64,000 bases of DNA from an uncultured Gammaproteobacteria bacterium (lineage in GTDB: Bacteria; Pseudomonadota; Gammaproteobacteria; Steroidobacterales; UBA11654): positions 1 through 64,000 of the forward strand of contig CACJRN010000006.1 in assembly GCA_902595845.1 (NCBI GenBank), read 5' to 3'. Shown piece after piece: positions 47,412-51,151 of this stretch. The notes beneath the pieces were generated by a model, which was not told the origin of the DNA, ran no database searches, and saw only the letters and a program-made list of their open reading frames with translations. Both the position numbers and the translations under genes were made by a program. The first letter of the stretch is position 1. Each line of letters begins with the position of its first letter.

Positions 47412-48905
47412 ATGGGCAAACCAACAGGCTTTATGGAATACCCAAGGAGAAAGACACCCTGGCGTGATCCAGTCGATCGGGCATTGGATTATTACGAAAT
47501 TTATACTCCTGCAGAAGAAGAACAGCTGAAAAAACAAGGCGCGAGATGCATGAACTGTGGCGTACCATTTTGTGAATCAGATCATGGATGCCCGATCGAT
47601 AATCTAATTCCAGAATGGAATGATTTAGTCTATAAGGGAAAATGGAAAGAGGCATATGAGAGGCTTACAAAGACAAATAATTTTCCAGAGTTTACAGGAA
47701 GGGTTTGCCCAGCACCTTGTGAGGGAGCATGTGTTTTGGGTATTAATGAGCCAGCAGTCACGATTAAAGACATCGAAAACTCAATCATTGACAGGGCTTT
47801 TGAAGAGGGCTGGGTCAAAGAGCAGCAGCCAGCTGAATCAACTGGCAAAAAGATTGCAGTTATAGGGTCAGGGCCAGCAGGACTCACCGCAGCAGATCAG
47901 CTTAATAAAGCGGGACACTCGGTCACAGTTTTTGAAAGAGAGGACAGAATAGGAGGCCTTCTTGTTTATGGAATTCCTAATATGAAGCTTTCAAAGAGTT
48001 TGTTGAATCGAAGAGTGAAACTATTGGCTTCTCAGGGAATTGAATTCAAGACTAATTGCAATATTGGAGTTAATATCTCTACTGATGAGATCAAAAAAGC
48101 ATTTGATGCTGTTTTGATAGCAACAGGCTCAACCATAGCAAGAGACCTGAGTATTCCTGGAAGAGAGTCCAGCAATATACATTTTGCAATGGATTTTCTG
48201 ACTCAGAACACCAAGAGCTTATTAGATAGCTCACTGTCAGATGGTAATTACATCGATGCCAAAGATAAAGATGTGATTGTAATTGGGGGCGGCGATACTG
48301 GAACAGATTGTATTGCTACTGCAATTCGCCATGGATGCAAAAACATGGTCAATATGGAGATCATGAGTAAGCCTCCAAAAAGGAGGGGTTTAGACAACCC
48401 ATGGCCACTCTGGCCAAACATTTTGAGGACTGACTATGGGCATGAAGAGTCAGAAAAAAGATTTGGATCTGATCCAAGACGCTTCTCATTAATGAGCAAA
48501 GAGTTTACGAGCAAAGATGGACTTGTGACTGGCCTCAAGACAGTTGAGATTGAATGGGTCCAGGAAAAGAATGGAAAAATGACAATGAAAGAAATTGCCA
48601 GTACTGAAAAAACTTGGAACGCAGACTTAGTGTTGCTTGCACTTGGATTTATAGGCCCAGAACAAAAGATACTCAATGACTTTGGTGTTTCAATAGATGA
48701 TATCGGAAATATTGATTCAGCCTATGGAAAATTTACAACCAATGTTGACGGAGTCTTCTCTGCTGGGGATGCAAGAAGAGGACAGTCTTTAGTGGTTTGG
48801 GCTATGAATGAGGGGCGAGGCGCAGCTCTTGCAATTGATCGATATTTACAAGGGGCAAGCAGACTTTCGGCACCAATGATTAAGCTTGGTTCATTGAGAG
48901 ATTAA
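47412..48905 (+). CDS. gltD: Glutamate synthase small subunit
   Basis: Electron-input beta subunit of GOGAT, 497 aa, passing electrons from NADPH to GltB. N-terminal Cys clusters (Cys46, 49, 54, 60 in [15 protein letters not shown]; Cys99, 103, 107 in CPAPCEGAC) bind 4Fe-4S centres. The FAD motif is [12 protein letters not shown], the NADPH motif [11 protein letters not shown], and the C-terminal FAD motif [12 protein letters not shown]. Its last 15 nt overlap the convergent trmB gene. Confidence 0.96.
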
Positions 48906-49568
48906 TTTGAAACAAAAGTCATAAATCTCATGCCCCAAAACAACTCCTCTTTCTTCAAATTTTGTGCTCAACACTCTTTCTGAAAAACCTTTTTTCTCAA
49001 AGTCTTTCCTTTTTGAAAAAAGAGCATCAATTTGTTCCGCATAATTTTCCCAGTCTGTAGATATATTAACCAAGCCATTGGGCATTAGCTTTTTCGAGAT
49101 AAGCTGAATAAAGTCACCATTAATGATCCTTCTTTTATGATGTCTTTTTTTTGGCCATGGGTCAGGAAATAGCAAATTAATCTCACTGATAGAGGCATCC
49201 ACTATTCCAAATTTCAGTACTTCGACCGCATCACCGCTTATAATCTTTAAATTCTTTAAATTGTTTTCATCGATTAATTTTAAGCAATGCCCTATTCCAG
49301 CATCATAGACCTCTATACCAACGAAGTGTGTTTGTGTATTTTCATTTGCCACAGACACCAGCAACTCGCCATTTCCAAAACCAATATCGATGATCAAAGG
49401 ACTTTCAGGATCGCCAAGAAAGCTATCAGGTATTATCCCAAGGTCTGCTGAATATTGAATGCCATATTTGGGTAAAAGATTCTCTAATGCATATTTTTGA
49501 GAAGATGTGATCCTCCCCTTTCGTCGAACAAAACTTCTAACAGGCCTATGGGTTGAGGAGTTGTTCAC
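48891..49568 (-). CDS. trmB: tRNA (guanine-N7)-methyltransferase
   Basis: Methylates G46 of tRNA with S-adenosylmethionine. The SAM site is [12 protein letters not shown], the tRNA-contacting catalytic segment is [17 protein letters not shown], and [11 protein letters not shown] is typical of the family. 225 aa. Its start overlaps the 3' end of rpoH by 23 nt, so it depends on the rpoH transcript. Confidence 0.95.
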
Positions 49569-50409: not shown

Positions 50410-50427
50410 CTCGAAAATAATTTCGAG
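50410..50427 (-). promoter_or_regulatory. rpoH leader hairpin covering the weak ribosome-binding site
   Basis: In the rpoH mRNA, CUCGAAA and UUUCGAG form a 7-bp stem with a UUAU loop. The 3' arm contains the only SD-like bases (CGAG), ending 6 nt before the ATG. A stem of four A-U and three G-C pairs is weak enough to melt with temperature. A thermometer role is inferred from this geometry and from known RNA control of E. coli rpoH. Confidence 0.45.
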
Positions 50428-50434
50428 GCAGTAA

Positions 50435-50464
50435 ATATTAGCACTCTCTGACCATGAGTGCTAA
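50435..50464 (-). promoter_or_regulatory. Probable rpoH promoter embedded in CIRCE
   Basis: Reading the - strand: -35 TTAGCA (50464-50459), 18-nt spacer, extended -10 TGC then TAATAT (50440-50435). The upstream half of CIRCE supplies the -35 and the downstream half supplies the TG extension and start of the -10. Repressor binding would block RNA polymerase. The transcript would start about 25-28 nt upstream of the ATG and include the leader hairpin. Confidence 0.5.
50438..50464. promoter_or_regulatory. CIRCE element (HrcA operator) upstream of rpoH
   Basis: TTAGCACTC (50438-50446), 9 nt, GAGTGCTAA (50456-50464): an exact match to the CIRCE consensus TTAGCACTC-N9-GAGTGCTAA bound by the heat-shock repressor HrcA. 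It lies 34 nt before the rpoH ATG. CIRCE normally controls groESL and dnaK. Finding it here indicates that HrcA represses the heat-shock sigma factor itself. The neighbouring divergent gene rsmD starts over 100 nt away and is a less likely target. Confidence 0.9.
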
Positions 50465-50566
50465 AAATATAGTTAAATATTTTAAAAATACTATATATAT
50501 CAATAAATTATAAGGTTCAATAAATCATTAGTTATGGTAATATTTAAGCAAAATCTGCGCAAAAAA

Positions 50567-51151
50567 ATGACGACATTAAAAAAAGTAAGAAAGGTTAGAA
50601 TAATTAGCGGTAAGCACAAAGGCGTTTCCCTTTCTGTAAATGATGATCTTGTTAAACCCACGCCTGACCGTATTCGAGAAACATTATTTAATTGGCTTTC
50701 TGCTAGCATTGAGGGGTCACGTGTTTTGGAATTATTTGGTGGTAGTGGATGTTTAAGCGTTGAAAGTGTCTCCAGAGGCAGTAACTCAGCATTTTATATT
50801 GATTCCTCAAAAAAGGCCTGTAGTGCCTTTAAGGATTCACTTGTTCGATACAGAATCAACGATGTAGCGGTTAAATGCAAAGACTCAATAGAAATGATTC
50901 AAAAGAGTAATACGCAAAAGCCATTTGATATCATTTTCCTAGATCCGCCTTATGGTCAATATGATTTAATAAAAATTATAGACACGCTTTATGATCATTA
51001 TTGGGCTTCAGACGCAAGCAAAATTTATCTCGAGTCAAATGAATGTCTGGATAAAATAGTATCTTCAAAATATCAATTAATTAGGGATTCAAAGGCTGGA
51101 AATGTATATTATGGGATCCTAAAATTAATAAGCCAAAATAGTCTAAAATGA
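50567..51151 (+). CDS. rsmD: 16S rRNA (guanine-966-N2)-methyltransferase
   Basis: About 194 aa SAM-dependent methyltransferase. SAM motif VLELFGGSGCLSVES, catalytic motif FLDPPYGQYDL, and family N-terminus RIISGKHKG with KPTPDRIRETLFNWL. I chose ATG 50567, just before MTTLKKVRK; an ATG at 50534 in the same frame is possible. coaD overlaps its stop by 4 nt, the common rsmD-coaD pairing. Divergent from rpoH. Confidence 0.92.
   Translation: MTTLKKVRKVRIISGKHKGVSLSVNDDLVKPTPDRIRETLFNWLSASIEGSRVLELFGGSGCLSVESVSRGSNSAFYIDSSKKACSAFKDSLVRYRINDVAVKCKDSIEMIQKSNTQKPFDIIFLDPPYGQYDLIKIIDTLYDHYWASDASKIYLESNECLDKIVSSKYQLIRDSKAGNVYYGILKLISQNSLK

Follow-up and report, generated by a model that had tools for sequence, protein, structure and literature searches.

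A CIRCE operator interleaved with the predicted rpoH promoter points to HrcA control of sigma-32 in gammaproteobacteria

The HrcA and sigma-32 heat-shock systems are usually taught as parallel. In Escherichia coli, the promoter region of rpoH, the sigma-32 gene, contains sigma-70 promoters and one sigma-E promoter. A CIRCE element before rpoH was predicted in 2004 for Geobacter sulfurreducens (PMC545781, Table 8), and the arrangement as such is already known, as a prediction, from that organism. For a class-wide rule, a composite promoter, or a CIRCE at a gammaproteobacterial rpoH, we found no description in the open-access literature. Here we analyzed a stretch of 64,000 nucleotides (the window, G000:C6:1-64000) from an uncultured gammaproteobacterium, whose assembly (1.44 Mb, 25 contigs) is 92% complete.

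The window contains an exact CIRCE, TTAGCACTC-N9-GAGTGCTAA in the 9-9-9 layout, separated by 34 nt from the ATG of rpoH, which is read from the minus strand (Table 1). It is the sole match to CIRCE in the window with three or fewer mismatches, and a chance match was ruled out by shuffled sequence, in which 0.04 such sites are expected per window. The gene downstream of the operator is, judged by its protein family model, a true rpoH. The exact match and the identity of the gene confirm the initial annotation, which had placed a perfect CIRCE over the rpoH promoter 34 nt ahead of the gene. The span given there, 50435-50464, needs a small refinement: CIRCE itself occupies 50438-50464, and the extra three bases from 50435 complete the -10 element. 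The neighboring trmB gene is possibly on one transcript with rpoH, and the true start of the divergent rsmD may lie further in than annotated. We rejected a SAR86 origin of the window: the SAR86 rpoH genes that we compared are only 52-57% identical to the rpoH of the window, and no CIRCE was found at them.

Table 1. Predicted features around the CIRCE operator (window coordinates)
Feature	Position	Strand	Basis
trmB	48891..49568	-	ORF list, TIGR00091; overlaps end of rpoH
rpoH (sigma-32), 285 aa	49546..50403	-	TIGR02392 equivalog, 373 bits vs cut-off 323
7-bp stem-loop CTCGAAA-TTAT-TTTCGAG, predicted rpoH leader	50410..50427	-	folds in five closest genomes
TGCTAATAT, extended -10 = CIRCE right half + TAT	50435..50443	-	class-wide rpoH vs groES comparison
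CIRCE operator, exact consensus	50438..50464	.	sequence match; no mismatch at rpoH in 10 family genomes
TTAGCA, -35-like hexamer from CIRCE left half	50459..50464	-	sequence; 4/6 match, weak
rsmD, divergent neighbor	50534..51151	+	ORF list, TIGR00095

Read on the minus strand, the site consists of TTAGCA, 18 further nucleotides, and then TGC directly before TAATAT, which is identical to TATAAT at 4/6 positions. TTAGCA lies within CIRCE and is constant for that reason. The two operator halves had initially been described as supplying the -35 and the extended -10 of a good promoter. The extended -10 stands, since it is kept class-wide at rpoH and is missing at groES, but the word good somewhat overstates the case for this individual sequence. 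Upstream of CIRCE, within a block conserved in most of the family, TATCAATAAATTA (50498-50510) agrees with the IHF consensus WATCAANNNNTTR on visual inspection; alternatively, it could be the promoter of the divergent rsmD. On the other side of the operator, the 3' arm of the stem-loop in the predicted rpoH leader contains GAG, 6 nt before the ATG. The stem-loop folds in the source genome and four relatives (G000, G001, G002, G003 and G007), with a nearly constant stem and a variable loop, and is absent in five more distant family members. It is possible that it sequesters the rpoH Shine-Dalgarno sequence, and it is possibly a small RNA thermometer; it gave no match to an Rfam thermometer.

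The source genome has two good CIRCE sites, one before rpoH and one before groES (G000:C16:4474-4500, 1 mismatch), which provides a second target at groESL; the initial annotation had proposed a search for such further copies. A third match has 3 mismatches and lies close to where a 350-aa GTPase-like gene starts; it is probably due to chance. An alignment of the rpoH upstream regions of relatives, also proposed there, revealed strong conservation: 10 family genomes carry the element without a mismatch ahead of rpoH, while its N9 center varies freely. The only other conserved site in the family with two or fewer mismatches is that of groES, TTAGCACTC-N9-GACTGCTAA. In this count, the second site of G010 was left out of the assignment; G003 has the rpoH site only and G008 the groES site only, and both assemblies are incomplete. 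For three relatives, we also looked for a CIRCE in the hrcA-dnaK region; the best candidate has 5 mismatches. At the level of the order, CIRCE was found in 188/196 genomes, mostly in two copies, and 29 of the 30 loci read are at groES or rpoH.

We then scored the rpoH upstream regions of a class sample of 149 genomes, nearly one per family, in 139 of which rpoH was located. With a site defined as a CIRCE with three or fewer mismatches within about 400 nt upstream of rpoH, 99 of 138 genomes (G000 excluded) had one; reversed upstream sequences, used as a control, gave zero sites at the same threshold. The site was present in 94/102 hrcA-positive genomes versus 5/36 genomes without detected hrcA (Fisher p 2e-18, relatedness not corrected), and the control genome of E. 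coli had no HrcA match. Eight genomes are hrcA-positive and have no CIRCE within about 400 nt of rpoH. The five with a site and without detected hrcA (G291, G321, G275, G225 and G328) are either incomplete assemblies or relics; G358, of the same genus as G225, does have hrcA. Upstream of rpoH at three loci (L174, L155 and L158), another CIRCE-like site, complete or partial, lies beside the first, and these pairs are possible tandem operators. The predicted linkage of CIRCE to rpoH is the rule among the sampled gammaproteobacteria with hrcA. The initial annotation had regarded a link between HrcA and sigma-32 as unusual, which is contradicted both by the 94 of 102 hrcA-positive genomes and by the earlier prediction in G. 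sulfurreducens.

We aligned the 99 rpoH sites on CIRCE, with 28 groES sites as a comparison, and found conserved bases outside the operator at rpoH. Right after CIRCE there is mostly [A/T][A/C]T, which gives an extended sigma-70 -10 such as TGCTAAAAT; N[A/C]T follows CIRCE at 84/99 rpoH sites versus 2/28 groES sites. On the other flank, GAAC, with which a sigma-E-like -35 begins, starts at a fixed spacing of -16 to -14 before CIRCE at 64/99 rpoH sites versus 0/28 groES sites, and GAACTT with at most one mismatch occupies that position at 53/99 rpoH sites versus 1.5% in shuffles. Promoters of the sigma-E type consist of GAACTT, a 16-nt spacer and TCTNA. At the rpoH sites, TCTNA is built from the last bases of the left CIRCE half and the first bases of N9, where T and A are favored; sites with GAACTT (31/53) do not show this preference clearly more than sites that lack it (18/46). 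At groES, a sigma-32-like -35, CTTG[A/C]A, is found at -28 in 27/28 loci.

The exact composite pattern occurs in 93/276 genomes, in a single copy each. Among the composite loci read, 33/35 are before rpoH, one is before groES (L323) and one is before a ClpB-like gene (L322). The last of these belongs to G272 (L322 1555-3101), whose rpoH has no CIRCE. Of the rpoH genes without CIRCE, 8/35 have a sigma-E-like promoter, versus 1.3 expected, and in G277 such a promoter is accompanied by the remaining half of a CIRCE. We put at roughly even odds that most HrcA-bearing gammaproteobacteria have an old three-input rpoH promoter, in which the 27-bp operator is fused with a sigma-E -10 (left half) and a sigma-70 extended -10 (right half) and HrcA vetoes both; lineages that have lost hrcA, of the E. 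coli type, would keep the sigma factors only. For the focal family itself, a sigma-E-dependent rpoH promoter, sought as GAACTT-N16-TCTNA before rpoH together with RpoE in the genome, was rejected. GAACTT is absent there from its conserved place before rpoH, and no RpoE scored over the cut-off of the curated model, with weak ECF-like matches only. In this family, the sigma-E input at rpoH seems to have been lost together with the sigma factor.

We propose, with a probability of about 0.8, that HrcA represses rpoH through a CIRCE in the core of a sigma-70-type promoter, polymerase and HrcA being mutually exclusive on the site. The basis of this model in the sequence is the operator, its overlap with the promoter, its conservation, its co-distribution with hrcA, and groESL as a second target. 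Against it stand the weak -35, the lack of an hrcA match in the source assembly, the five genomes with a site and no detected hrcA, and the eight with hrcA and no site within about 400 nt. That HrcA directly controls sigma-32, as the initial annotation had claimed, is most likely, given the operator over the promoter, the conservation, and hrcA in the lineage. If GroEL keeps HrcA active, as in the B. subtilis HrcA model, free GroEL would hold HrcA on the site and polymerase would be blocked. When misfolded protein occupies GroEL, HrcA would fall off and release groESL and rpoH together. The groESL CIRCE is located just downstream of a sigma-32-like promoter, and sigma-32 would then drive groESL again, so that GroEL closes a coherent feed-forward loop. 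Many other gammaproteobacterial families would have a sigma-E-like -10 under this operator as well, where envelope stress would feed in.

A search of the source assembly (92% complete) found no hrcA gene, a result named at the outset as one that would count against HrcA control. All 10 of the 10 family relatives have hrcA, and in the one that was scanned, HrcA passed its equivalog model and had both Pfam domains. The gene order in that relative (L281) is dnaJ-dnaK-grpE-hrcA, with nadK divergent from it. In the source assembly, dnaK is broken off at about codon 114, where contig C2 ends, and nadK at codon 190, where contig C22 ends, and neither grpE nor smpB, which are neighbors in L281, was found. 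Given these two genes truncated by contig ends, the two further genes that are missing, and the presence of hrcA in all relatives, the absence of hrcA, real as it is in this assembly, most likely reflects an assembly gap. If the species had instead lost hrcA, the rpoH site would be a relic that is no longer bound. An assembly without hrcA is what a relic would predict, but the broken and missing neighbors, together with a CIRCE that is still letter-perfect, make a relic improbable, and we judge loss of hrcA from the source genome to be less likely than an assembly gap. As a separate observation, ssrA and nadK are arranged 5' to 5' in the source genome (L280 5886-6897), whereas in the relative (L281 7323-12337) it is hrcA that nadK faces, with ssrA several genes and 3.8 kb away; this difference is a probable local inversion.

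The operator might also serve the divergent rsmD on the plus strand instead of rpoH, as CIRCE is palindromic and rsmD begins on its opposite side. We consider this very unlikely: the promoter elements flanking CIRCE point to rpoH and are conserved across many families, the operator lies 34 nt from rpoH versus at least 69 nt from rsmD, and rsmD is no known heat-shock gene. There is a similarly small chance that the inverted repeat works chiefly at the RNA level, as a stem-loop in the rpoH leader that affects mRNA stability or translation, in the way that CIRCE in leaders of B. subtilis can influence mRNA stability. The conserved -10 formed by the right half, however, places the predicted rpoH start downstream of the inverted repeat, and the bases flanking the repeat are conserved in the register of promoter elements. 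Repression of rpoH by HrcA stays our preferred reading.

Should HrcA control of sigma-32 synthesis be common, most hrcA-bearing gammaproteobacteria would have a heat-shock circuitry unlike the E. coli model, with GroEL load and envelope stress integrated at a single promoter. If the three-input reading is true, the textbook sigma-32 circuit would be a reduced form. In E. coli itself, both sigma-70 and sigma-E act on rpoH, an arrangement that the composite also suggests in many families; E. coli has no CIRCE layer, and its control genome gave no HrcA match. G. sulfurreducens, as described in PMC545781, resembles the present case in having hrcA, an exact CIRCE ahead of rpoH (-51 relative to the start codon), and groESL as another target; it differs in belonging to another class and in that its hrcA-grpE-dnaKJ also carries a CIRCE, and we noted no overlap with a promoter in its description. 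With the B. subtilis type of HrcA/CIRCE control over groESL and dnaK, the operator consensus and the repressor family are identical, whereas here the predicted target is a sigma factor gene and the operator is interleaved with its promoter.
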